Source: Clostridia bacterium
Lineage (GTDB): Bacteria; Bacillota; Clostridia; Christensenellales; Aristaeellaceae
Reading direction: 5' to 3'
Assembly: GCA_017464305.1 (NCBI GenBank)
Contig: JAFUDS010000022.1
Location: 1 to 46,048, forward strand
DNA length: 46,048 nt
Numbering within the stretch: the first letter of the stretch is position 1; each line of letters opens with the position of its first letter. Shown one piece after another: positions 33,144 through 46,048 of the stretch. Below the pieces are notes generated by a model. That model searched no databases. It saw nothing but the letters and a program-made list of their open reading frames with translations, and had not been told where the DNA came from. The translations under genes and the position numbers were made by a program.

Positions 33144-33665
33144 TCATCTCCGCCGCAGGATCTCTCCGTATACAAAACCCTTCACAAGCTCATCCCCCGT
33201 CCAGTCCAGTTTTAGCCCACCTGGCTTTTCTGTGGTCGCTTCCTCTCCGGCGGTTTCAGCCCCCAGCGGTTCCCAATCCTCATGGCAGGGGTCCAGGCCT
33301 TCCATGGATATTCCTTCCAGACTGCCGGAGGGCAGGGCGTAGGGATCGTCATGGCAGGGATCTTTTCCCTCCATGGATTCGCCCCCCAGGCTGCCCACAG
33401 GAATCTCCGCAGGATCATCATGGCAGGGATCCACCCCTTCCATGGATTCAGCTTCCTGGCTGTACAGATGGGGAAATTCCTGCTGCATCCGTGCCTCCAT
33501 GGCCGGTCCCAGGGAGGGAGTCTGTGCTGCTGAATTCCTTCCCGCTTTCCCATTCACTTTGATCGTCTGCTTGCTTTTTCCCGCGCCCTTCCGCGCGCCG
33601 CCGCGCATCGCAGCGCTGAAAATCCAGAGGAGGATCAGGAAGAAGAATACACCCATTCCTTCCAT
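33144..33665 (-). CDS. Membrane-anchored protein with three SMEG-DPCH repeats
   Basis: I do not recognise a named family. The 173-residue protein begins with one hydrophobic segment (residues 5-20, GVFFFLILLWIFSAAM) followed by a basic stretch (RGGARKGAGKSK), so most of the chain probably faces the cytoplasm. Three tandem 23-residue repeats start at residues 74, 97 and 120, each with SMEGxDPCHxD and the first two also with a PxGSL ending. The conserved Cys-His-acidic cluster could bind a metal, but this is only inference. The last 35 residues (KLDWTGDELVKGFVYGEILRRR end) look like a short folded tail. The ATG at 33665 has GGAGGG 6 bases upstream; the ATG at 33671 is too close to it. The gene is just downstream of floA, about 45 bases away, so a membrane-microdomain link is possible. 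Confidence 0.8.
   Translation of the reverse strand: MEGMGVFFFLILLWIFSAAMRGGARKGAGKSKQTIKVNGKAGRNSAAQTPSLGPAMEARMQQEFPHLYSQEAESMEGVDPCHDDPAEIPVGSLGGESMEGKDPCHDDPYALPSGSLEGISMEGLDPCHEDWEPLGAETAGEEATTEKPGGLKLDWTGDELVKGFVYGEILRRR
33255..33446 (-). repeat. Three tandem 69-bp coding repeats (SMEG-DPCH units)
   Basis: The repeated DNA phrase, seen on the plus strand as CATGGCAGGGATC or a close variant, recurs near 33285, 33351 and 33420 at a 69-base spacing and encodes the three protein repeats. The first two repeat units are closest to each other; the third diverges after the DPCHED phrase. Confidence 0.8.
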
Positions 33666-33710
33666 GCTCATCCCTCCTTGTTCTCCGGATCAATTTCACC
33701 GGTCAGCATT

Positions 33711-34709
33711 TTACTTCTTTCCCTGGGCGTCCGGCGCGGTCTGGGGCGCGCTGGCCTTGGCGATGGATTCCCGCATCTCCGTGTCCGCCACGGTGTTCTT
33801 CATGTTGTAGTAGTCCATCACGCCCATCTTGCCTTCCCGCAGGGCGGTAGCCATGGCCTTCGGCACTTCCGCTTCTGCTTCCACCACCTTGGCCCGCATC
33901 TCCTGCACGGAGGCCTTCATTTCCTGCTCCCGGGCCACGGCCATGGCTCGGCGCTCCTCCGCCTTGGCCTGGGCGATGCGCCGATCCGCCTCCGCCTGGT
34001 CCATCTGCAGCTGGGCGCCCACATTCCGGCCCACGTCCACGTCCGCGATGTCGATGGACAGAATTTCATAGGCCGTGCCAGCGTCCAGGCCCTTGCTCAG
34101 CACCGTGCGGCTGATCAGGTCCGGGTTTTCCAGCACTTCCTTGTGGGTCTCGGAGGAGCCGACAGTGGTCACGATGCCTTCGCCGACCCGGGCGATGACG
34201 GTTTCTTCTCCAGCGCCACCTACCAGCCGCTCGATATTGGTGCGCACGGTGACCCGGGCCTTGGCCCGCAGCTCAATGCCGTCCTTGGCGATGGCCGCCA
34301 CCACCGGGGTTTCGATCACCTTCGGGGTAACGCTCATCTGCACCGCCTGGAAAACATCCCGGCCCGCCAGGTCGATGGCACAGGCCTTTTCAAAGGCCAT
34401 TTCGATGTTGGCCCGCTGGGCGGCGATCAGGGCGTTGATCACCCGGTCCACGTTGCCGCCCGCCAGGTAGTGAGTTTCCAGCTGGCTGATGTTCAGGTCC
34501 AGCCCCGCCTTCCGGGCCTTGATCAGGGGATAGACCAGCCGCTGGGGCTGAATCCGCCGGATCCGCATGCCCACCAGCGTGCCGATGGAAACGTGCACCC
34601 CGCTGGCCAGGGCGGTGATCCACAGCCCCATGGGCACAAAATGCAGGAAAATGGCCAAAACCACGATGGCCAGTACAATGATCAGGGGAATCAATACCAT
34701 GCTCTCCAT
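33711..34709 (-). CDS. floA: Flotillin-like protein FloA
   Basis: FloA organises functional membrane microdomains in Bacillota. The 332-residue protein has one N-terminal membrane segment (residues 5-25, [20 protein letters not shown]), an SPFH/PHB domain ([26 protein letters not shown] through about residue 220), and an Ala/Glu-rich coiled coil ([20 protein letters not shown] onwards). Length and phrases match B. subtilis YqfA/FloA closely. The start follows GGAGGTAAAGTAA. The NfeD-like partner gene that often precedes floA is not present here; upstream is a short gap, then the AT-richer region. Confidence 0.95.
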
Positions 34710-35603: not shown

Positions 35604-36047
35604 GTGAGGTCAAGAATCACGACCAGCAGATTATTAACCATGATCCACGGAGCAACAACCTTCGAAGAAGCCACCGCCTACCATCAGACTGTTCCTGAAC
35701 CCCAATTCAAGGACTATTTGTATGAACTGATGGTAAAGAAGGAACTCAATCCCAAGGATATCATTCAGCGCAGCGGTATTGAGCGGTCCTATTTTTACCA
35801 TATTCTGAATGGCAACAAACACCCTGGCCGCAATATCATCATCCGGATTGGTCTTTGCATGCATGCATCTTTGCAGGAAATCAACCAGTTGCTTCGTTTG
35901 GCTGGTCTGTCAGGGCTTTATTCTCGTCGGAAGTGGGATGCCACCATTATCTACGCTATCAGCAAGAATTTCACTATGGAGGAAACCAACCATCTTCTGA
36001 TCAGCGAGGGAGAAGAACCCTTATACAGAGAGGATCACAATGTCTGA
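35604..36047 (+). CDS. XRE-like helix-turn-helix protein, first gene of the signalling operon
   Basis: The 147-residue protein carries a helix-turn-helix of the lambda-repressor type at about residues 40-85 (NPKDIIQRSGIERSYFYHILNG then RNIIIRIGLCMHASLQEINQLL). The remaining C-terminal part (FTMEETNHLLISEGEEPLY) resembles a second half-domain with the same ExNxLL phrase. The start is a GTG at 35604 with AAAGGAGG 11 bases upstream. It overlaps the next gene, a protein kinase, by 8 bases, so both are translated together. It may be the operon's regulator or an adaptor phosphorylated by the kinase; neither is shown. Confidence 0.8.
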   Translation: MRSRITTSRLLTMIHGATTFEEATAYHQTVPEPQFKDYLYELMVKKELNPKDIIQRSGIERSYFYHILNGNKHPGRNIIIRIGLCMHASLQEINQLLRLAGLSGLYSRRKWDATIIYAISKNFTMEETNHLLISEGEEPLYREDHNV

Positions 36048-36867
36048 AATCACTCCTGAAGTATGGGCCTCCTGCCCGCAGGTTATACGCTCTCGTTATC
36101 GATTTCTCTCTTGTCTCTCGGGGGAGGAGCATTACGCGGTAATGCTATGTCAAACGATAGCTACCGATAAAAAGGTAATCATCAAGGCCTCAGACAGTCT
36201 TGAAATCGCAGACCGACTACGGAAAGAAAACCAACTGCTCACGATGATCCATAGCCGGCAAGATCCCCGCGCGGATCTTTTTCCCCACGTGGTTGAGCTT
36301 TACCATGAGACAGAAAACTCATTTACCGTGCTGATCAGAGATTACGTCTCTGGCCATTCCATTGAGTCGCTGGTGGAATCTCGGCAAGATCGTCCAGGTC
36401 TACACCGAGAAAAAAGCATTCAGTACCTGAAAGAAGTGCTGAATCTGCTTTCCTTTCTTCATCATCTGGATCCTGTCATTATTCATCGTGATATCAAGCC
36501 ACAGAATATCATTGTGGATGAATTGGATCACTGCCACCTGATCGATTTGGATATCGCCCGTTCACCCAATGATTGCAAAAATGCCCCCGATACCTTCATC
36601 ATTGGCACCAGGCTGACAGCGCCACCAGAGCAGTTCGGATACCAGCAAACAAGCATTCGCAGCGACATCTACTCTGCAGGGGTATTGTTGCTTTACTGCA
36701 TGACCGGTTCCTACTATCTTTCTGCTGCCAAGGAGTTGGATCCCTTTCTTCGAAGGATCGTGAAACATGCTACCAATTTCGATCCCAATCAGCGCTACGC
36801 CAGTGATGAAGCTATGTGCCGAGCCCTTGGACGGGCCTCCAAATTCTCTTTCTGGAATTCCAGGTAA
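36040..36867 (+). CDS. Hanks-type Ser/Thr kinase with an atypical nucleotide loop
   Basis: This 275-residue soluble kinase lacks any membrane segment. The ATP-anchoring Lys is K49 (VIIKAS). The catalytic loop HRDIKPQN is complete (D151, K153, N156). The metal-binding triplet, normally DFG, is DLD (D169-L170-D171), and the activation segment ends in APPEQFG. The glycine-rich loop is missing: the corresponding strand reads CLSGEEHYAVML. It may thus be active but bind nucleotide in a non-standard way. It is the second gene, overlapping the HTH gene by 8 bases. Confidence 0.88.
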   Translation: MSEITPEVWASCPQVIRSRYRFLSCLSGEEHYAVMLCQTIATDKKVIIKASDSLEIADRLRKENQLLTMIHSRQDPRADLFPHVVELYHETENSFTVLIRDYVSGHSIESLVESRQDRPGLHREKSIQYLKEVLNLLSFLHHLDPVIIHRDIKPQNIIVDELDHCHLIDLDIARSPNDCKNAPDTFIIGTRLTAPPEQFGYQQTSIRSDIYSAGVLLLYCMTGSYYLSAAKELDPFLRRIVKHATNFDPNQRYASDEAMCRALGRASKFSFWNSR

Positions 36868-36988
36868 GCGGTGGCTCTGCTTCGTCTGCCTTTAGTCTCG
36901 ACGATAGTGCAGTGAAAAGATAGAATTGTTTAGTTAGCTACCAATTTTCCGGCTCAGGCCAGGAACAAAGAAAAAGGATAGTGGTAAA
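36868..36988 (+). other. 121-base gap inside the signalling operon
   Basis: This is the largest gap in the block. No good promoter or terminator was recognised. It ends with AAAGGATAGTGG, the ribosome site of the next gene. Confidence 0.5.
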
Positions 36989-38071
36989 ATGCTTCTGGAT
37001 GGTGAAATCACAACCGTTTCCCACGAGGATTTAAACGCAGTCATCCGTTTGCGTCGTAATAGCGATTTTGCTCGTCAATATTTGGAGTCAGGAATTCATC
37101 CCCGCGCATTTTCAGATACGATGCTGCGTTGTGCTGAGCTGACTGATCTCGTGTCCTTACGTCTGAAATTGTTTTCGTTGGATGGGTTTATCGGGGAATC
37201 CTCTGGTGACAGTTTACGCCGAAAAATTGATGGTTGGCTGAAGAACAAATCCATTCCCAACAGCCGGGATCAATTGGTTCGGATCTGCTACGCACTGGAC
37301 ATGTCTCCAGAAAATGCACAAAACTTTATGGCAACCGTCAGTGAGGGCGGCTTTCACTATCGCAATCCTCAAGAGCTCACCTGGATGTTTGGCTTGCAGG
37401 AGAAGCTCCCGTATAACACAGTGGTCAAGCTACAGGAAAAGGTATCTGCCATTCGCATTGGCGGTTCAGGCGTCACACGTGATATTGCCTATCATTTTCA
37501 AAACATACGTACTGTCGATGAATTTCTGGTTTTTGTTTCTACCCATGCTGATAATTTAGGAAAACTGCACAATGCCGCTTATTACCACTTCACCCGCTTC
37601 ATGAATTTGCTTACGGGCCCACAGAGCTCCTTATTCGACATGCAGGAAGAAATCTACTCTGTCAGGGATGTCGTACGCTTGTACTTGGAAATGCCAGCCG
37701 TAAAAAGCCAGGACAAGACAGCTCTAACCAAGATTCTCAGCCATCACTGGCCAGACGAAATACTCCTCAGTCGCATTGCCAATCGACAAGTGGATGTTCC
37801 CCGAAAGGTATTAACGCTTCTGTTTCTGATCACAGATGGCGGAGAAGACAATAATTGTCTCAGTGACGATCCAGCGGAAATATTTGCTGATCGGTATCGC
37901 AGACTGAACCTTTTGCTCGATGAATGTAGTTTCAGCCCGCTTGATCCAAGAAACGCCTTTGACTGGCTGGCGTTATACTGCATGTATGTAGAAGATGACG
38001 CAGATGTCAGCGAGCGCATGAGAGCTGTATTCCGGGAGAACATTGGTGATGCTCCAGTGGAAATGGACTGA
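36989..38071 (+). CDS. Unknown protein with an HTH-like N-terminal region
   Basis: The 360-residue protein is not recognised as a named family. Residues about 75-115 (RRKIDGWLKNKSIPNSRDQL then VRICYALDMSPENAQNFM) have the spacing of a helix-turn-helix-like unit and match, in pattern, the HTH region of the first gene of the block (P-x-R-x(3)-I-R-I ... E-x-N-x-L-L). A phrase FHYRNPQELTWMFGLQEKL follows. The remaining 230 residues are mostly helical, with no membrane segment and no catalytic motif I can name. Position between a kinase and a PP2C gene suggests a signalling substrate or regulator. The start ATG at 36989 has AAAGGATAGTGG upstream. Confidence 0.75.
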   Translation: MLLDGEITTVSHEDLNAVIRLRRNSDFARQYLESGIHPRAFSDTMLRCAELTDLVSLRLKLFSLDGFIGESSGDSLRRKIDGWLKNKSIPNSRDQLVRICYALDMSPENAQNFMATVSEGGFHYRNPQELTWMFGLQEKLPYNTVVKLQEKVSAIRIGGSGVTRDIAYHFQNIRTVDEFLVFVSTHADNLGKLHNAAYYHFTRFMNLLTGPQSSLFDMQEEIYSVRDVVRLYLEMPAVKSQDKTALTKILSHHWPDEILLSRIANRQVDVPRKVLTLLFLITDGGEDNNCLSDDPAEIFADRYRRLNLLLDECSFSPLDPRNAFDWLALYCMYVEDDADVSERMRAVFRENIGDAPVEMD

Positions 38072-38144
38072 AAAAATAGAATCGTACGTGTGTTATCCTC
38101 CCACCGTCGGGACATTACCGAACAACGAAGAAACAGGAGAGAGA

Positions 38145-39161
38145 ATGATGACTTACGCATGGGCTGAAAACGTTATTCAGGAGGAAATTGCTCCCATTGC
38201 AGAAACTACGATTAACCCTGAAGATCAGGGCATACTGACCTCATTTCTTCAAGCATTGCCCGCTTGGGTGCTGCCAGTTGCCGGAGCCATGCTGATTTTG
38301 ATCGTCGTGCTAATCTGCCTCCTCATTCATCGAAACAAAAAATCCCCCAAAACTCCAGAGGTCGAGAAAACGACTGGCTCTGCCGACGCCCGGACAAATA
38401 TTTCCATTTTCTCTTCAAGCGAACTACCTGTGACCTCCATTGGCAATATTCACGGAATTGGTTCTCGTCCAGATCAACAGGACGCCTTTGGTGTATCGGA
38501 TCTGAAGAAACAGAACCATATCCGAGAAAATGGCATTCTGGCCATCGTAGCGGACGGCATGGGCGGGCTCAGTCACAGCGGAGAGATCAGCCATACCCTT
38601 GTGCAGCGAATGCTGAAGGAATATGAAAATGCAACAGGAAACCAACGGGAACGTTTACTTTCCCTGGGAGCCATTGCCAATTCTTTGGCCAGTCGGGAAT
38701 TTGGCAGGGATACAGGAACAACCCTGATCGCCGCCAGCATTCAGGGAGATAAACTGGACTTTCTTTCCATCGGCGATAGTCGCATCGCCCTCTGCCGCTC
38801 CGGCGCTCTCCTCACCTTAAATCGGATGCATAATTATGCTGCAGACCTGGACAGTTCTGCAGCCAGGGGCCTCGTCAGCATATCTTCCGCCATGAATGAT
38901 CCCAAGCGCGCCAGGCTAACCAGCTATGTGGGAATGAACGATCCCAAAGCGGTTGACCTTCCCGCCAGCCCCATGACGCTGCAAAAGGGAGACCGGATCC
39001 TATTGATGACAGATGGCGTATACAACACCTTGTCGGATGAAGATATCTTGCACGCCATGTCTAAACCAGCTCACATCGCTTCCCAGCAACTGGAGGAAAT
39101 GATTCTTTCAAAAAACAAACCCAATCAAGACAATTATACCGCCATCATCTTAGAGATCTGA
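38145..39161 (+). CDS. Membrane-anchored PP2C-type Ser/Thr phosphatase
   Basis: The 338-residue protein has one membrane segment (residues 41-62, VLPVAGAMLILIVVLICLLI) followed by HRNKKS, placing the catalytic part in the cytoplasm. PP2C motifs are in order: RPDQQDAFG near residue 115, VADGMGG near 140, GTTLIAA near 196, IGDSRIAL near 211, LMTDGVYN near 288, and QDNYTAIIL at the end; the metal-binding Asp residues are all present. The ATG at 38145 has ACAGGAGAGAG upstream; an in-frame ATG at 38043 overlaps the previous gene and is unlikely. It could reverse the work of the kinases in the same block. Confidence 0.9.
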   Translation: MMTYAWAENVIQEEIAPIAETTINPEDQGILTSFLQALPAWVLPVAGAMLILIVVLICLLIHRNKKSPKTPEVEKTTGSADARTNISIFSSSELPVTSIGNIHGIGSRPDQQDAFGVSDLKKQNHIRENGILAIVADGMGGLSHSGEISHTLVQRMLKEYENATGNQRERLLSLGAIANSLASREFGRDTGTTLIAASIQGDKLDFLSIGDSRIALCRSGALLTLNRMHNYAADLDSSAARGLVSISSAMNDPKRARLTSYVGMNDPKAVDLPASPMTLQKGDRILLMTDGVYNTLSDEDILHAMSKPAHIASQQLEEMILSKNKPNQDNYTAIILEI

Positions 39162-39182
39162 TGTGCGGGAAGGAACGTGGAC

Positions 39183-40442
39183 ATGGAAGAAATCAGAAAT
39201 AATGAAGAGCTTGCTTCAGGAACCATCTTGGCCGGAAAGTATCTACTGGAAGAGCCCATTGGCCGTGGTGGTTTTGGAATCACCTATCGGGGAAAAACCC
39301 TTCCTTTGCCCGGAAATGCTGTAGCAATCAAGGAGTTTTTTCCACGGGCCATTTATACCCGCAGCGCTTCTGGGAAGGCAATCGTTCAACCCGGGAGAGA
39401 GAAGGATCTGGTCAGATGGTCAGAGGATTACGAACGAGAATGTGCTTTAATGATGGCGCTTCGAACCAATCAAGCGGTAGTTCATGTCTGGGAAACCTTT
39501 AAAGATCCCCTGACTGAAACCCAATTTCTAATCATGGATTTCATTCCAGGAGAAACGCTGGAAAAACGGGTTCAACGTGGATCCCTTCTGTCCGGAGAAG
39601 AGGTGGAAAGCATGCTGAAATCTTTTCTCCCTGAACTTGCGAAAATGCACCAAATTGGTATCCTGCATCGAGACATCAATCCCGGAAATCTGATGTTCTC
39701 TGAATCACAGGGGTTAAAGCTGATCGATTTTGGTAGCGCGCGGCAGATTCCTCGAAATGGTGGTAAACTGACTACCCTGCTCAGGCCTGGCTTTGCCCCG
39801 CCTGAACAATATGATAGTCGAGGTCCGCAAAGCTCGGCTACCGATGTTTATGCCCTATGTGCCAGCCTGTACTTCGCTTTGAGCGGCGTCATTCCCCCGG
39901 ATGGAAAGCAGCGCATGATCCAGGATGAATTGACACCTCTAAGTAAACTGATGCAGGTTCATGCCCGTCCTCAACTGATTCAAGCCATCATGCAAGGCTT
40001 GGTTCTGCCAATAGAAGATCGTATTCAGACTTTTGACGAAATGTACCGTGCGATCTATCGCGAACACAAGGAAAGCTTCGGAGACAAACCTATATCGGCA
40101 AGCAAGCTTCCTCCGCCGAAACTGGTTTCCCAGGTTGGAAATATCCATGCACTCGGTAGCAATTCTATTCCATCAGACGCAAAGATTTTTTCGACCGAGG
40201 ATAGACCTTCCATCCGGGCAAAATCCTGTATTAAAGCTGCCAAGGCACTATCCTTCCTGCAACAAAAGAAGTATCAGGTCTTCCTACAGGAGTTGGAGCG
40301 TATCAATAACTTGCCTGAGAGCGATACCAAATGGATAGCACTGGAAGAAGCCATCTGGAAAAATGGAAAGCTCTTCGTGCTGTTGACAGATTTAATGACG
40401 CCCAGTCTTCCGCCCGGAAATGAATTGAAAAAAATGCAATGA
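39183..40442 (+). CDS. Hanks-type Ser/Thr kinase with HRDIN catalytic loop
   Basis: The 419-residue protein has a canonical glycine loop GRGGFGITYRG (residues 27-37) and the subclass phrase VAIKEFFP with the ATP Lys at residue 50. The catalytic loop is HRDINPGN (D164, N169), so the usual catalytic-loop Lys is replaced by Asn. DFG is intact (D182), and the activation segment ends in APPEQY. There is no membrane segment. The last 110 residues are a helical tail (KAAKALSFLQQKKYQVFLQEL) of unknown role. The start at 39183 follows AAGGAACG; a GTG two codons earlier is in frame. VAIKEYFP-type kinases with a substituted loop Lys are common in Bacillota. Confidence 0.9.
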   Translation: MEEIRNNEELASGTILAGKYLLEEPIGRGGFGITYRGKTLPLPGNAVAIKEFFPRAIYTRSASGKAIVQPGREKDLVRWSEDYERECALMMALRTNQAVVHVWETFKDPLTETQFLIMDFIPGETLEKRVQRGSLLSGEEVESMLKSFLPELAKMHQIGILHRDINPGNLMFSESQGLKLIDFGSARQIPRNGGKLTTLLRPGFAPPEQYDSRGPQSSATDVYALCASLYFALSGVIPPDGKQRMIQDELTPLSKLMQVHARPQLIQAIMQGLVLPIEDRIQTFDEMYRAIYREHKESFGDKPISASKLPPPKLVSQVGNIHALGSNSIPSDAKIFSTEDRPSIRAKSCIKAAKALSFLQQKKYQVFLQELERINNLPESDTKWIALEEAIWKNGKLFVLLTDLMTPSLPPGNELKKMQ

Positions 40443-40461
40443 GCGGCTGGTATACTCTTCT

Positions 40462-40490
40462 TGAGAGTTGAGAACAGCTCTCATATTACA
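40462..40490 (+). promoter_or_regulatory. Possible internal promoter or hairpin before the FHA gene
   Basis: TTGAGA and TATTAC with 17-base spacing overlap a small inverted repeat, TGAGAG-N10-CTCTCA. Either an internal promoter or a weak processing hairpin is possible; support is low. Confidence 0.3.
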
Positions 40491-40509
40491 AAACACAGGA
40501 GGTTTTCCC

Positions 40510-41070
40510 ATGGAAATGAAACAGTGTGCTTATGGACATTTCTACGACTCTTCCGTATACAACGAGTGCCCCTACTGCGGTGATAAATCCTTGAACAGTG
40601 CAAATCCAAATGTTGTTGACCGTGAGGAGATTGGCGCGACTCTGCCCTTGAACGGGGCCACAAAATCTTTTCCGCAGGATGAAGGTGTTACCATTCCCCT
40701 GGATGACAATCAGGAAATCCGTCCCGTGGTTGGTTGGCTGGTTTGTGTAGAAGGTCCCAACCGTGGTCGGAGCTATGAAATTCACAATGAGAATAACTTC
40801 ATTGGCCGCAGTGAAACGATGGATATCAACATTCAGGGAGACCAGGGAATTAGCAGAGACAAGCCAGTCATCGTGACCTATGATAGTCACACTCGCTCCT
40901 TCTTCTGTGGCTTCATGAATGGCCGTGGAGTGGTTCGCCTGAACGGTACTCCCTTGCTGTCCACCACTGTGCTGAAGCAGGGGGATGTGATTGAGATCAG
41001 CAAAACCCGGCTCATGTTCATTCCCCTCTCCAGCGAAAGCTTTGACTGGGACTGGGAAAATCTGGAATAA
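40510..41070 (+). CDS. Zinc-finger FHA-domain protein
   Basis: FHA domains bind phosphothreonine peptides. This 186-residue protein begins with a short zinc-finger-like unit (CAYGHFYDSSVYNECPYCG, C-x2-x-H and CxxC), a known N-terminal partner of FHA domains in Bacillota. After an acidic linker the FHA domain covers about residues 75-175: FIGRSETMDINI, then ISRDKPVIV, then GRGVVRLNGTPLL. The GR and SR residues are present, but the usual His after SR is replaced, so phosphopeptide affinity is uncertain. There is no membrane segment. AGGAGG stands 7 bases before the ATG at 40510. It lies between two kinase genes, as a likely reader of their products. Confidence 0.88.
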   Translation: MEMKQCAYGHFYDSSVYNECPYCGDKSLNSANPNVVDREEIGATLPLNGATKSFPQDEGVTIPLDDNQEIRPVVGWLVCVEGPNRGRSYEIHNENNFIGRSETMDINIQGDQGISRDKPVIVTYDSHTRSFFCGFMNGRGVVRLNGTPLLSTTVLKQGDVIEISKTRLMFIPLSSESFDWDWENLE

Positions 41071-41103
41071 GACCATATTAAATAGATAGTGGAGGCATGC
41101 CCT

Positions 41104-42906
41104 ATGGAAGAGAAAAAGATGGATCTGGATATATGTCTGCGCTGCATGACGCCTTTGAATGGGGTTAAGGTATGCCCCCATTGTCATCTTGAGGCTGGTT
41201 CCTATGTTCCGGAAAAGCATCACCTGGCCCCCAGGACGATTCTTGATGGAAAATATCTGGTTGGTTGTGTGCTGGGAGAAGGCGGCTTTGGTATTACCTA
41301 TATTGGATGGGACCTGCAATTGCACACCATGGTGGCAATCAAGGAATACTTCCCCACCGGTATCGTTTTTCGGGATAATAGCGTTTCCAATATACTGACC
41401 ATCTATTCCGGAAACAGTGAAAAGACCTTCCTGTATGACCGGGATAAGTTCATGCGGGAGGCGCAGATGCTCGCTAAATTCGGCGGTAATCCCGGCGTAG
41501 TGGACGTGAAGAACTATTTCAAGGAAAATGGAACCGCCTATATTGTCATGGAATACGTGCAGGGGATCAATTTAAGTGCCTATACGGAGCAAAATGGCGG
41601 CAAACTGCCCATTGGTCAGGTCCTCAAACTGCTGGAAACGCCCATCAAAACCCTGGGAGAGATGCATCAAGCCCGTACGTATCACCGCGACTTGAGCCCA
41701 GAAAACATGATGGTGACAGAAAATGGAACTGTCAAATTGATTGACTTCGGTTCCACCATGACAATCCAGAAGAATAAGAGCACCACCACGCTAAAGGTTC
41801 GCGCGGGATACTCCCCTATCGAATTGTACACTATGTCCGGCCAGGAAGGTCCTTTCTCGGATATCTATGCCCTGAGTGCTACCATTTATCGTACAATTAC
41901 TGGAGTTACTCCTCCTGCCGCAACGGATCGTATTGATACCGACCAACTGATTCCGCCAATTAAGGCTGGAGCCAAGGGTCTGACCCCTGCACAGGAGCAA
42001 GCGCTGATGAAGGGATTATCTGTCAAAGCGCAGGATCGCTTCCAAAGGGTGGAAGATCTTTATGCTGCCTTAGTAGCGGGTGACCAGGGGAAAAAGAAAC
42101 TCTCTTGGAAGCAAGTTTCAGGTATAACTGCCGCCTGTCTGGTCCTGGTTGGTGCAGGAATCTGGAAGCTCTCTGATTCTTCAAAGCCACTGGAGCCAAT
42201 TCTGATTACTGAAGAAAGCTTTCATGGCGATACGGAACGCTACACCTCTTTTCAGCAGGGAGACTATACAGATATATCTGTATCTCTCTCCCCAGAGGAG
42301 CTTCGTATTGAGGATTATCTTGGATATATCTCCCAGATCGCCTCTCAGGATCAACAAAAGCCCCAGAAACTCCGCAGCAATCTTTTGCAAGCATACCTGG
42401 ATGGTTTGGAGCAATCTGAATATTGGCCTTATCTGGGCAATCTATTGATCGTGAATGCAGATATTGAGTCTTTAATTCCCTTCCAACGGCATTATGAGTC
42501 TGGCCTGATCTGTCTGGAATTCCATAATTGCGTACTCCCGAAGGACCTCAGTCCCTTGAAATCTATGGCGCCTTCTCTTGTGGAGTTCAGTGGAAGAGAC
42601 AATACTCTTTTCACCTGTGATACCATCGACTGGCTTGAGGCTTCAACAAACCTACAAGTATTGGACATGACCTTTGCTCCGGGGAGCAAAGCAGATCTAA
42701 GCGTTCTCAAGAATTTTACCCAATTGAGGATCCTGAGGTTGCGGAATGTCGCCATTTCCGAAGCCGACCTGGCTGAATGGATTCCTTCCTGGCAAAATCT
42801 GGAGACTCTTCAATTAAACAACACCGGAATCACAGATGAATCCCTGTTTAATCAATTGCCTGCGCTACAAAATATCATTGTACACAACGAGGAGGAAGCC
42901 TCATGA
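41104..42906 (+). CDS. Zinc-ribbon Ser/Thr kinase with membrane segment and C-terminal leucine-rich repeats
   Basis: The 600-residue protein has a zinc ribbon (C11, C14, C24, C27), a kinase domain (glycine loop GEGGFGITYIG at 58-68; VAIKEYFP with Lys 80; catalytic loop HRDLSPEN at 194-201; DFG at 214-216; YSPIELY in the APE position), a membrane segment (about 337-356, QVSGITAACLVLVGAGIWKL), and an external part of about 240 residues. The last 110 residues show leucine-rich repeat phrases (LQVLDMTFAPG, LRILRLRNVAI, LETLQLNNTGI). The catalytic-loop Lys is replaced by Ser 198. The layout suggests a receptor kinase: LRR sensor outside, kinase inside. The ATG at 41104 follows GGAGG by 8 bases. 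It overlaps the next gene by 4 bases. Confidence 0.9.
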   Translation: MEEKKMDLDICLRCMTPLNGVKVCPHCHLEAGSYVPEKHHLAPRTILDGKYLVGCVLGEGGFGITYIGWDLQLHTMVAIKEYFPTGIVFRDNSVSNILTIYSGNSEKTFLYDRDKFMREAQMLAKFGGNPGVVDVKNYFKENGTAYIVMEYVQGINLSAYTEQNGGKLPIGQVLKLLETPIKTLGEMHQARTYHRDLSPENMMVTENGTVKLIDFGSTMTIQKNKSTTTLKVRAGYSPIELYTMSGQEGPFSDIYALSATIYRTITGVTPPAATDRIDTDQLIPPIKAGAKGLTPAQEQALMKGLSVKAQDRFQRVEDLYAALVAGDQGKKKLSWKQVSGITAACLVLVGAGIWKLSDSSKPLEPILITEESFHGDTERYTSFQQGDYTDISVSLSPEELRIEDYLGYISQIASQDQQKPQKLRSNLLQAYLDGLEQSEYWPYLGNLLIVNADIESLIPFQRHYESGLICLEFHNCVLPKDLSPLKSMAPSLVEFSGRDNTLFTCDTIDWLEASTNLQVLDMTFAPGSKADLSVLKNFTQLRILRLRNVAISEADLAEWIPSWQNLETLQLNNTGITDESLFNQLPALQNIIVHNEEEAS

Positions 42907-44273
42907 GATGCCCCCATTGTAAATCTGAAATACCCTTTTCAGAATTCTGCCCACAATGCGGTCAAAAAATCAGTTATGGGGGAAACACTGTCCTCTACAA
43001 AGCGTCGCAAAGTGGAACATTGACCTATAAGGAAATCTTTGCTAACACGTTCAAGCGGCATACTATGGAGGATACGCACCGGAGTCTGGCTGCCGTCCCA
43101 GGGGATAATATGCTGTCTTCATGGGAACGTCCATGGCTGTTTCTCCGCTTATTCCTGGTTCTGCTAATCATGAGCGTTTTGCTGATCATCCAAAGCAATC
43201 ATTATAGCACGCTGCATGCCTCAGATATGAGTTCGATGTTCCTCATTGAATTCAGCTTCGTAACCTCGTTGATCGGACCCTTTGTCATCGCTATGCTGGT
43301 CTGGGAGATGGATATTCATCGGCAGATAAACTTCCTCAACTTTCTGGTTCTGGTCTTCTTCGGTGGCATTTTATCCACGGCGATTGCCCTGCCGCTGAAC
43401 AACGCGATCAATGGCGCTTCCTGGACAGCGGGGCTGACAGAGGAAGCAACGAAGCTCCTAATTTCTGTACTTTTCATCGCTGTATTCCGCCCAAAGGGGT
43501 TGCACTGTCTGGATGGGCTTGCTATCGGCGGAGCTGTTGGCGCTGGATTCGCCTTCTGGGAAAATGTCTTCTATGCTTTTCTGAAATCTGGAAGCGTTGG
43601 AATCATGTATATGGCCATGTGGCGCTCCTTCTGGGGATTCTTCGGTTCCCACATGATGTATACAGCGCCATATGTGGGGGCATTGTGCTATGCTATTAAC
43701 GGTAACAAACTGCAAGCGAAGCATTTTCTCAACCCCTTCTTCCTAATCATGTTAGCTTTTGGGATGGGCGCCCATGCGTTGAACAACGTGGATGAAAACC
43801 TGGGTATCGCCCTTCAGATCACCTTTGGAGAACTCGTTTTCCCAGTTTTCTGGATTCAGATCATTCTGGGTGTTTTCGCTTGGGGATTGCTGCTCTATAT
43901 GTTGCGTCGCGGCATCCGACAGGCACTGGAAACCAACGAAATCGATCAAGCTGTTCATTATGCTCATACAGAAGTGTGCCGCGGGCATGCCCTGATATGT
44001 CGGGAAGGAACTTATGCGGGGAATGTGTTTTCTCTGGAGGTGCCATTGGTCATTGGCCGGCAACCTAATGACTGCAATCTCATTCTTCAAAGCGACGCAG
44101 TCAGTCGAAAGCATTGTGCCATCTACATGTCAGGCTCTCAAATACTCTTACGGGATTTTGGTTCCAGCAATGGAACTAAGCTGAATGGAAGCAAAATCAG
44201 CATCAATCAGGACATTTCTCTCCAAACCGGCGATTTGATTGTAGTGGGTTCGGAAAGGTTCGAAATAGCATGA
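42903..44273 (+). CDS. Zinc-ribbon, PrsW-like intramembrane protease and FHA domain in one chain
   Basis: The 456-residue protein starts with a zinc ribbon (C3, C6, C16, C19). A membrane part with about eight hydrophobic segments follows (residues about 78-350) and carries the PrsW-family residues: TEEATKLL with E180-E181, ENVFY with E220, H250 in GSHMMYTA, and H291 in GMGAHALNN. PrsW enzymes are proposed glutamic-type intramembrane proteases that act on membrane anti-sigma factors. The last 80-90 residues are a complete FHA domain (VIGRQPNDCNLIL, VSRKHCAIY, FGSSNGTKLNG) with all the usual phosphothreonine-binding residues. The start and end overlap neighbours by 4 bases. The likely role, by inference, is proteolysis of a membrane protein recruited or triggered by phosphorylation. 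Confidence 0.88.
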   Translation: MRCPHCKSEIPFSEFCPQCGQKISYGGNTVLYKASQSGTLTYKEIFANTFKRHTMEDTHRSLAAVPGDNMLSSWERPWLFLRLFLVLLIMSVLLIIQSNHYSTLHASDMSSMFLIEFSFVTSLIGPFVIAMLVWEMDIHRQINFLNFLVLVFFGGILSTAIALPLNNAINGASWTAGLTEEATKLLISVLFIAVFRPKGLHCLDGLAIGGAVGAGFAFWENVFYAFLKSGSVGIMYMAMWRSFWGFFGSHMMYTAPYVGALCYAINGNKLQAKHFLNPFFLIMLAFGMGAHALNNVDENLGIALQITFGELVFPVFWIQIILGVFAWGLLLYMLRRGIRQALETNEIDQAVHYAHTEVCRGHALICREGTYAGNVFSLEVPLVIGRQPNDCNLILQSDAVSRKHCAIYMSGSQILLRDFGSSNGTKLNGSKISINQDISLQTGDLIVVGSERFEIA

Positions 44274-44980
44274 TACCACCAGTTATAGCCTCCTTTTCAT
44301 TACCTGGGGGGCGGGTTATAAATGAAGATACCGTCCTATCCACCCAAACCAATAAACGTACCTTTGCCCTCGTGGCAGATGGTCTTGGGGGATATGGCGG
44401 CGGGGATGCTGCTTCCCACGCAGCTGCGTCCGCCATCATGGATTCGCTAACCCAATCATCCAGGTTGTCCAGAGACATCCTGGCTCAGGCCTTCAATCGG
44501 GCCAATGCCGCGGTGCTTGCCTGCCAGGCTGAACATCAAGGCAAAATGATGTCCACCATGGCCGTAATAGGTATAGAGCATCATCGACTTTGGATTGCAC
44601 ATCTGGGGGATACAAGGATATATTGTTTTCAAGGACGGCAGCTGCGCTCCTGTACCCATGATGACTCCGTTACGCAGCTTCTGGTAGATCGCGGGGAAAT
44701 TTCTCGGGATGAAATGCCTCATCACGAGACCCGCAATCTACTGACGAAATGCCTTGGACGCATGGAACAGCCCGACGAAAAAATTGATCATTATTTTTGG
44801 GGAAAGCATTCTCGTGTACTCATTTGTTCAGATGGTTTCTGGGAAAACTTCACCGATGAAGAATTAACCCACATCGTTACCGGCTCACCCATAGAAACCG
44901 CGTTGGAGCAATTAAAGGAATTGACGCTCCAGCGACTTTGCGAGGACAGCGATAACTGTTCCGCCCTTCTGATCGGATAA
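44270..44980 (+). CDS. Soluble PP2C-type Ser/Thr phosphatase
   Basis: The 236-residue protein is a minimal PP2C domain without membrane segments. The motif order is INEDTVLS near residue 18, ALVADGLGGYGGGDAAS near 33-48, TMAVIGI near 95, HLGDTRIY near 110, ICSDGFWENF near 185, and DNCSALLIG at the end; the metal-binding Asp residues are present. It overlaps the PrsW-FHA gene by ATGA, so the two are made together, and it differs clearly from the membrane-anchored phosphatase at 38145. The two may work on different pools of phosphoprotein. Confidence 0.92.
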   Translation: MIPPVIASFSLPGGRVINEDTVLSTQTNKRTFALVADGLGGYGGGDAASHAAASAIMDSLTQSSRLSRDILAQAFNRANAAVLACQAEHQGKMMSTMAVIGIEHHRLWIAHLGDTRIYCFQGRQLRSCTHDDSVTQLLVDRGEISRDEMPHHETRNLLTKCLGRMEQPDEKIDHYFWGKHSRVLICSDGFWENFTDEELTHIVTGSPIETALEQLKELTLQRLCEDSDNCSALLIG

Positions 44981-45000
44981 CAGGAAGGAGAATATACACC

Positions 45001-46048
45001 ATGGCCAATCGCTCAGGAAAAAAAACACTTTCATTCCTGCTGGTTATTGTCTGGCTGGCAACGGTTCTCACCGGCTCTTCTGTTGCTGAATCAATGGATT
45101 TTGATACAGTACATATTTCATTCTCAGTCCCATTGGAGAAAATAAAGATACCATTAGAACCAGCAGGCTCTATTGCTTCTATTACCAATTCGATCTCGCT
45201 ATCCGCTGGACTATTATCATCAACTCATAACTCTCCTTCTCTGTCCAAAGAGGAGATAACCTCCGCCCTAAAGCAGCAGTTTTCTGCCCAGAATAATGAT
45301 TCCTCAATATATTCGGGGAAAGGGTCCTCTTCTGTTTATGATTGGATGCTCGCCACGTTAGTTACGCTAAAAGATGGTGATTTGGATTGCATTGCATTCT
45401 GTTCCGTTGGGTATTTTACGGAGGATGCAGTCCTCTTGTTCACTAATACTGACTGGTTAATCGATAGTGGCTATACAAAGTATAGTGAGTTGAATAGTTC
45501 CCAGTTGTACATCATGCCAATAGATTATAATAACCAAGCCACTGGTGAACTCATCCCCGCTTATGTTTCCCCTGTTAGTGATAGCTCTCCGTTTAGTTGT
45601 GTAACTGCGGAGTATTGTTCTGACAACATGGAAGGGATATCTCCTGAACTCACCGATCCCGAATATAACGGAATATTGATTGCCCTCTTAGAGAATGGAG
45701 AAGCCGTGGCACAATATACCACAATCAGAAAATATGAAGATGTATACAAAGCCGATGATGTGAATTCAATTGTTCCAATTCCAGGTTTCCCATTCTACGT
45801 CAGTGCTACAGAAAACACAGTAACCTCCCCCGCCGCAGGCATTTGGGGTTGTGATGGATACATATATTCTCTCTATGACATTATTCTGGAGGCCATTCAT
45901 GCCGCCTCATCGTCATCTGAAACACCAACTCCCACGCCGACACCCACACCCACACCCACCCCCACACCCACACCCACACCTACACCTAAATCTACTCCTA
46001 CGCCGACGCCAACGCCTACACCCACACCTACGCCGACTCCGACGCCAA
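45001..46048 (+). CDS. Secreted protein with Thr-Pro repeat, cut by the right edge
   Basis: The frame from the ATG at 45001 is open to the window end, 349 codons. The start follows GGAAGGAG and lies 20 bases after the preceding phosphatase gene. Residues 1-29 are a signal peptide (TLSFLLVIVWLATVLTGSSVAE). About 280 residues of an unrecognised extracellular domain follow, with few Cys and repeated aromatic residues. From about residue 308 a strict Thr-Pro dipeptide repeat begins, the kind of rigid linker that leads to another extracellular or wall-anchoring part beyond the window. It is the only secreted protein in the block and is a possible output or sensor of it. Confidence 0.85.
   Translation, partial: MANRSGKKTLSFLLVIVWLATVLTGSSVAESMDFDTVHISFSVPLEKIKIPLEPAGSIASITNSISLSAGLLSSTHNSPSLSKEEITSALKQQFSAQNNDSSIYSGKGSSSVYDWMLATLVTLKDGDLDCIAFCSVGYFTEDAVLLFTNTDWLIDSGYTKYSELNSSQLYIMPIDYNNQATGELIPAYVSPVSDSSPFSCVTAEYCSDNMEGISPELTDPEYNGILIALLENGEAVAQYTTIRKYEDVYKADDVNSIVPIPGFPFYVSATENTVTSPAAGIWGCDGYIYSLYDIILEAIHAASSSSETPTPTPTPTPTPTPTPTPTPTPKSTPTPTPTPTPTPTPTPTP
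45921..46048 (+). repeat. Thr-Pro (ACN-CCN) coding repeat
   Basis: About 20 or more TP dipeptides encoded by alternating ACx CCx hexamers with one interruption (PKSTP near 45988). It continues past the window end. Third bases vary (a, c, g, t), more so toward the end. Confidence 0.9.

Follow-up and report, generated by a model that had tools for sequence, protein, structure and literature searches.

The window analysed here, a stretch of 46,048 nucleotides from an uncultured clostridium and a whole contig ending at position 46048, carries a block of ten genes that appears to combine two XRE-kinase units with a relay of FHA, PP2C and PrsW proteins. We read it in this way because the clades of two block proteins, UNK and HTH1, each pair with kinases elsewhere. 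Taken as a whole mechanism, that of a transferable island for phospho-signalling from membrane to gene, this reading has in our estimate a probability of about 0.5.

Ten ORFs, all on the + strand, fill positions 35604-46048, with intergenic gaps of -29 to 121 nt when starts are taken as first called. Likelier starts, accompanied by a Shine-Dalgarno-like sequence, were found for two genes, at 38148 and 40510. ORF calling and Pfam searches confirm the tightly packed, same-strand block of ten genes proposed in the initial annotation. Its HTH protein and "unknown HTH-like" protein are both of the HTH type and can now be described more precisely as XRE-like, by profile or fold. Together the genes encode two XRE-type HTH proteins, three Hanks kinases, two PP2C phosphatases, a Zn-finger-FHA protein, a Zn-ribbon-PrsW-FHA protein and a signal-peptide protein (E-values are those of Pfam matches):

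35604..36047, + strand: HTH1, XRE-type HTH protein of 147 aa from a kinase-linked clade (profile against PDB; kinase adjacency in relatives)
36040..36867, + strand: K1, Hanks kinase domain alone, 275 aa (Pkinase, E = 1e-24; no TM)
36989..38071, + strand: UNK, 360 aa, XRE-like domain (residues ~40-120) and helical C-terminal part; kinase neighbour
38148..39161, + strand: PP2C phosphatase with N-terminal TM anchor, ORF opening at 38043 (PP2C_2, E = 3e-13; TM; motifs; start)
39177..40442, + strand: K2, Hanks kinase without TM, 421 aa (Pkinase, E = 1.5e-27; 43% identical to the G244 copy)
40510..41070, + strand: Zn-finger-like and FHA protein, ORF opening at 40468 (FHA, E = 2e-4; 75% identical to the G244 copy)
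41089..42906, + strand: K3, receptor kinase of 605 aa, Zn-ribbon-like - Hanks kinase - TM - LRR (Pkinase, E = 2.7e-27; LRR_4, E = 4.7e-07; TM 343-361)
42903..44273, + strand: Zn-ribbon-like - PrsW intramembrane protease - FHA (PrsW, E = 3.2e-16; FHA, E = 1.3e-17)
44270..44980, + strand: soluble PP2C phosphatase (PP2C_2, E = 1.6e-12)
45001..46048, + strand: signal peptide - ectodomain - TP repeats, truncated where the contig ends; candidate FHA receptor of bitopic type

Scanning the whole window for Rfam families and tRNAs gave no matches. Three of the four Pkinase matches in the window's assembly (68.6% complete) fall within the block, so the clustering of kinases there is not due to chance.

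Most of the predicted enzymes and readers keep their motifs. K2 and K3 both have the VAIK lysine, HRD and DFG of Hanks kinases, and in K2 the Gly-loop is present as well. K1 reads VIIK, HRD and DLD, with no glycine-rich loop; it consists of the kinase domain only and has no TM. Most relatives of the HTH1-K1 pair have a TM and LRR behind the kinase. The LRR-kinase architecture claimed initially was upheld for K3, with the order kinase-TM-LRR given by Pfam and the predicted TM; its copy in G244, the nearest relative, is 1673 aa long with eight LRR_4 stretches. Motifs are likewise retained in both PP2Cs, in PrsW and in the FHA domain of the PrsW protein. The soluble PP2C matches the NCBIfam model Stp1_PP2C_phos (2.3e-45), under that model's cut-off. 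In the Zn-FHA protein the FHA domain retains GR and S, and the SxxH position reads SRDK. PrsW proteases are marked by EExxK, FxxxE and a membrane His. The block protein has EEATK, FAFWE, H250 and H291, all conserved in three homologues, and Pfam domain and motifs place it among PrsW proteins; its score of 17.4 bits is below the 225-bit cut-off of the NCBIfam PrsW equivalog. PrsW-FHA proteins are rare (3/308 family genomes): the genome-contig search returned no relatives, none were found on plasmids, and the order-level PrsW search gave the genome itself and one PrsW ORF without FHA. UNK, not PrsW-FHA, proved the useful anchor for finding related loci.

The two XRE-type proteins are genomic partners of kinases, as initially supposed. 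Of 60 UNK loci elsewhere, 57 have a kinase gene no more than 1 kb away, and in 54 of the 60 this partner comes immediately after UNK in the same orientation. In 43/60 the kinase gene is itself followed at once by a lipoprotein-like gene or fused with one. Most loci are a three-gene set of XRE protein, kinase-STAND-TM and lipoprotein. The UNK collection (A4) comprises 53 of the 60 loci and the window; L104 and L114 were excluded by hand, and L088, L108, L117, L120 and L122 are fragmentary. NACHT was detected in 30 of the 42 partner kinases scanned (A6, from a total of 57), a figure that describes this type of pair only, since the omitted kinases include those of L064, L065, L085, L118 and L119, which have no P-loop by pattern. 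A Foldseek search with UNK gave no match at E<=0.001.

HTH1 belongs to a clade related to UNK. Its profile (A5, which leaves out L134 and L152 and adds L085) matched C.AhdI (5.8e-4) and HipB(Lp) (0.045) in PDB. Of the 30 family loci that match best, the window among them, 28 have a kinase, mostly kinase-TM-LRR, adjacent to HTH1. Among the phylum-wide matches listed, 29 loci were examined with 1.5-kb flanks, and a kinase is adjacent in 13/14 of the closest and 0/15 of the more distant ones, a split drawn after seeing the result. All 35 HTH1-partner kinases scanned (A7, out of 41; window K1, L125, L130, L146, L152 and L174 are outside it) match Pkinase and 25 of them LRR_4, and 35 of the 41 have a hydrophobic segment. 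By their domain make-up, partner kinases of both kinds look like sensors.

A gene order of this kind is familiar from HipBA, where the gene of an XRE protein stands just before that of a Ser/Thr kinase, HipA, which is not a Hanks kinase. The HipA family is not among the families listed for K1-K3 and the 35 HTH1-partner kinases, which all match Pkinase, and many partner kinases here, unlike HipA, have TM-LRR or STAND-type parts.

Such regulator-plus-kinase gene pairs are common in related genomes and apparently undescribed. We tentatively suggest, at somewhat less than even odds, a widespread class in Bacillota in which an XRE-type regulator and a Hanks receptor kinase dedicated to it share one operon, as a Ser/Thr counterpart of two-component systems; the window would hold two kinds of it, merged with an FHA/PrsW proteolytic relay. 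The proposed receptor kinase is either kinase-TM-LRR or kinase-STAND-TM with a lipoprotein sensor. To our knowledge, most bacterial Hanks kinases have no known dedicated transcription factor. An XRE family travelling with receptor-like kinases in Bacillota would make it possible to test kinase-substrate pairs directly for many genomes of the gut and rumen. The sensor parts, of LRR and STAND type, have parallels in the receptors of plants and animals.

The block could instead be a conflict system (abortive infection or anti-phage), with kinases as toxic output restrained by the PP2C and XRE proteins, by analogy with kinase-phosphatase modules and XRE-kinase toxin-antitoxin pairs. We consider this unlikely. 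The block kinases match PADLOC PD-T4-6 models (best 4.1e-39), the usual partner kinase of UNK has a NACHT/STAND-type P-loop region, and the distribution is sporadic. However, the PD-T4-6 match is unspecific, because these kinases are also matched by numerous kinase models with other functions. A tblastn search of plasmids and phages and a pattern scan of viral contigs found no UNK, and none of the PADLOC models shown had matches to more than one of 63 neighbour ORFs (of 99 listed, from nine loci). The KKP module resembles the block in combining two kinases, one with FHA, and a PP2C; it is described as restricted to Gram-negatives, mostly in prophages, and includes a cold-shock-domain kinase (PMC11341870), whereas Pfam gave no CSD match in K1-K3.

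How far the genes belong together can be judged from relatives. In G244, which is from another genus, eight of the ten block genes are co-located, seven of them 43-75% identical to the window copies. The block is complete there and its flanks appear unrelated by eye. UNK, FHA and kinase genes are consecutive in G233, and in G301 a vWA protein and a kinase are encoded not far from a PrsW-FHA protein. The hand-assigned tree label "island" also takes in L121 (vWA and extra kinase only) and L107, where the extra kinase carries PASTA domains. The initial view of one coherent set stands for most genes, but not for the HTH1-kinase pair (35604-36867) as part of a single unit. This pair is missing from the G244 block, in G233 it sits on a different contig from the UNK-FHA-kinase row, and in the window a 121-nt gap follows K1. 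The block might therefore be an envelope-homeostasis core of kinase, FHA and PP2C to which chance or transfer has added an HTH-kinase pair with no relation to it. We regard this as slightly less probable still than a conflict system, as the HTH1 and UNK profiles align over 72 columns and in L085 the genes for UNK, an HTH1-like protein and a kinase-LRR follow one another.

The statement that no described system has this combination was right in part: T7SSc-T7SSj clusters of Bacillota, with T7SSf occurring in Clostridia, frequently group membrane kinase, PPM/PP2C-type phosphatase and FHA genes, although the words PrsW and LRR are absent from the main text of the source (PMC11217815), and PrsW fused to FHA and Zn-ribbons, as in the block, has been noted as a predicted signalling peptidase (PMC3482391). 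That the block is the regulatory arm of a T7SSe/f/j-like cluster with its machine past the contig end is nevertheless very improbable: WXG100 (PF06013) and YukD (PF08817) were each detected in 0/5 genomes with these genes (MAGs, only three of them >=90% complete; the B. subtilis control was positive in both), FtsK_SpoIIIE (PF01580) matched strongly once in each genome, always away from the block contigs (that of G000, the window's genome, ends at the block), and the G244 block is complete between its seemingly unrelated flanks. Compared with PrsW/RsiW site-1 proteolysis, the block protease is set among kinases, and no sigma or anti-sigma gene is among the ten. TerY-P triads consist of vWA, PP2C and kinase. 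The block shares with them a zinc-ribbon kinase and PP2C, and G301 adds the vWA neighbour, but none of the ten window proteins has a VWA match in Pfam; in L007, the G244 locus, none was found by a one-sequence model that also missed vWA proteins found elsewhere by Pfam. A theme of kinase with zinc ribbon, PP2C and vWA is described from actinobacteria (PMC7159879).

As a phospho-signalling island, the block would work as follows. K3 and the signal-peptide/TP-repeat protein would read outside signals, and K3, K2 and K1 would phosphorylate threonines, around which the FHA modules (PrsW-FHA, Zn-FHA and the putative receptor FHA) would assemble. This recruitment could place PrsW to cut a membrane partner, the candidates being the last gene's product and the TM-PP2C. 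The two PP2Cs, one membrane-bound and one soluble, would reset the system. Output would pass through HTH1 and UNK as presumed DNA-binding proteins, probably phosphorylated or held by kinases. For the initially proposed chain of sensing, phosphorylating, reading, cutting, resetting and transcribing, architecture, motifs and kinase partnership speak in favour and the separable HTH1-kinase pair against a single unit; every enzymatic step is one that we infer.

The last gene was initially taken to encode a secreted protein. This may be wrong, because the window gene ends inside the TP repeats at the contig end, and its positional counterpart in G244 (L007:10672-12510), SP-ecto-TPEP-TM-FHA, runs on past the repeats into TM and FHA. 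By this comparison the product may be a bitopic FHA receptor. BLASTP gave no match between the two proteins. A local alignment of the parts before the repeats scored 54, equalled by 8/1000 shuffles; for the last 50 residues alone, a segment chosen afterwards, 0/1000 shuffles reached the score. The two ectodomains are thus at most weakly alike; the same alignment with three other receptors gave no similarity. An AlphaFold model built from two sequences for the G244 ectodomain had a pLDDT of 35.6. This ectodomain did not match those of trypsin receptors, while the FHA end of the same protein does match theirs. Sister islands encode proteins of the types SP-trypsin-TM-FHA and SP-vWA-TM-FHA.

The window is one entire contig of 46,048 bases in an assembly of 2.53 Mb that is 68.6% complete, and ten plus-strand ORFs run from 35604 up to the contig end with intergenic gaps of -29 to 121 nt. 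Their order is HTH1, K1, UNK, TM-PP2C, K2, Zn-FHA, K3, PrsW-FHA, PP2C and a last gene, three of which are placed as follows:

35604..36047, plus strand, HTH1, 147-aa XRE-type HTH protein
36989..38071, plus strand, UNK, 360-aa XRE-like protein
45001..46048, plus strand, last gene, signal peptide, ectodomain and TP repeats

The initial annotation had proposed a packed, co-oriented block of kinase, PP2C, FHA and PrsW genes, and Pfam agrees, identifying three of the products as Hanks kinases, two as PP2Cs and two as FHA proteins, one of which is a fusion with PrsW, and placing LRRs on K3. The block is real and coherent, and its XRE-kinase units are of greater interest than the list of ten genes. 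The whole assembly has four Pkinase matches, three inside the block and one on contig C31. HTH1 matched HTH_31 under the cut-off, and UNK had no match in Pfam. Hydropathy analysis placed one TM in TM-PP2C, a TM separating kinase from LRR in K3, four strong segments in PrsW-FHA and a signal-peptide-like N-terminus on the last gene. PrsW-FHA retains the motifs GR, SRKH and SSNG, and in Zn-FHA the SxxH motif is replaced by SRDK. K1 is a bare kinase domain that lacks the Gly-loop and has DLD at the DFG position.

PrsW-FHA occurs in three of 308 family genomes (E<=1e-20): the window's own, G244 (62%, another genus) and G301 (29%). G244 holds eight of the ten block genes together in changed order (UNK, K2, Zn-FHA, TM-PP2C, K3, SP-TPEP-TM-FHA, PrsW-FHA, PP2C), its K3 being 1673 aa with LRRs; HTH1-K1 is missing there. 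Seven best-match pairs have identities of 43-75%.

Identity of window and G244 proteins (BLASTP, %)
UNK, 66
K2, 43
Zn-FHA, 75
TM-PP2C, 56
K3, 47
PrsW-FHA, 61
PP2C, 48

In genome G233, UNK, FHA and K3 reach the end of a contig. In the vicinity of PrsW-FHA in G301 are instead a vWA protein and a kinase. This locus (L009:6067-12760), which also has PP2C-like (by eye) and zinc-ribbon-like TM proteins, is a TerY-P-like neighbourhood.

The GC content of the block is 47.8%, 2-kb bins dropping from 0.56-0.63 (8-34 kb) to 0.47-0.50; that of the G244 block is 65.5%, close to its flanks. Low GC is not proof alone, because the first 8 kb of the contig are low too (0.45-0.49). In the UNK tree the window clusters with L065 and L064, from another genus (100/99), and an eight-row clade (100/98) contains seven of the ten rows labelled by hand as islands. 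Within the window's genus there is just one further UNK, from G045; it has 33% identity and a STAND-type partner kinase. We infer transfer of the block between genera as the simplest reading. Also low in GC is a 2574-aa surface protein cut at the contig start (5-7726, minus strand; Cna_B, FctA, DUF7601).

Searched against PDB, the HTH1 profile matched XRE proteins (C.AhdI, 5.8e-4; HipB(Lp), 0.045), and HTH1 and UNK alignments match each other across 72 columns (Prob 96.8, E 2.3e-10). HTH1-like proteins, many distant, are present in 139 of 308 family genomes (E<=0.001). A kinase adjoins the gene in 28 of the 30 best-matching loci, window counted, the exceptions being L129 and L153; at L129, an HTH1-clade member, a signal-peptide protein gene comes next instead. 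Phylum-wide, 40 of 398 genomes matched at E<=1e-10, and among 29 loci examined a kinase is adjacent in 13 of the 14 closest (L168 excepted) and in none of the 15 more distant, a split set after the result was known. The kinase is divergent in L172, L176, L177 and L178 and convergent in L173. All 35 partner kinases scanned have Pkinase and 25 have LRR_4, despite sequences cut at 1.5 kb; a hydrophobic segment is present in 35/41. At L085, UNK, an HTH1-like protein and a kinase-LRR are consecutive.

Anatomy and linkage of the block genes are direct observations. HTH1 and UNK would be outputs of the pathway, with putative DNA binding and phosphorylation, since they have XRE-like domains and are linked to sensor-type kinases, divergently in four loci.

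Of 60 UNK loci, nine have FHA or PP2C matches. A three-gene set of UNK, kinase-STAND-TM and an approximately 400-aa lipoprotein-like protein was seen in 43/60, in Clostridia (L064-L123; for example, L078:9890-15520), and in L066, L081, L083, L092 and L123 the kinase and the lipoprotein-like part form one fusion protein. Sister islands with UNK are L058/L119 together with L062 (G256), L070 and L073; L158, also of G256, is without it. G256 encodes 14 kinases. Kinases of sister islands carry MORN (L073), DUF6709 (L058) or RDD-FHA (L158) by Pfam and, by eye, repeats that resemble LRR and Sel1 (L062). The large island on G256:C47 (L058 and L062) has six kinases, with LRR-like, Sel1-like or propeller-like tails (by eye) or DUF6709 (Pfam), two PP2Cs and four FHA proteins, one with trypsin and one with vWA.

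Pairs of PP2Cs are further members of the sister islands, as are proteins built as signal-peptide-trypsin-TM-FHA or signal-peptide-vWA-TM-FHA. At its FHA end the G244 receptor matches the trypsin receptors (Prob 99.5), and bitopic FHA receptors whose ectodomain can be exchanged are therefore a recurrent part of islands. The last genes of the window and G244 both encode a signal peptide, an ectodomain of about 300 aa and TP repeats. BLASTP found no match between them, and the local alignment score of the stretches preceding the repeats was reached by 8 of 1000 shuffles. Because the G244 counterpart runs on into TM and FHA, the window gene probably, though not with certainty, encodes a bitopic FHA receptor cut by the contig end; of its earlier description as a secreted TP-repeat protein, the signal-peptide-like start and repeats hold, and 'secreted' may not.

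Kinase/PP2C/FHA signalling is a known kind of system. T7SSc-j often include kinases, phosphatases and FHA proteins (PMC11217815), in common with the block, whereas none of five genomes with block genes, of which three are at least 90% complete, gave a WXG100 or YukD match; for FtsK_SpoIIIE each genome had a single strong match, in no case on a block contig. Fusions of PrsW to FHA or to a Zn-ribbon have been noted as likely peptidases of signalling (PMC3482391), actinobacterial GAP1-N2 systems have a kinase and zinc ribbon alongside PP2C and vWA (PMC7159879), KKP is Gram-negative with a cold-shock-domain kinase (PMC11341870), and a survey of kinase architectures mentions a Pseudomonas kinase with LRRs and cyanobacterial kinases with FHA (PMC1262709). 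The earlier view that no described system fits is too broad, given the T7SSc-j sets and PrsW-FHA fusions; the regulator-kinase class behind the block is apparently undescribed so far. Among the matches listed in full-text searches of open-access papers, none described a pair of XRE protein and Hanks kinase or the three-gene set; because the searches covered open-access papers, support for novelty is weak.

Elsewhere in the window, beside floA (33714-34709), a small membrane-type protein (33147-33671, minus strand) with no Pfam match has three copies of an SMEGxDPCH-like motif.
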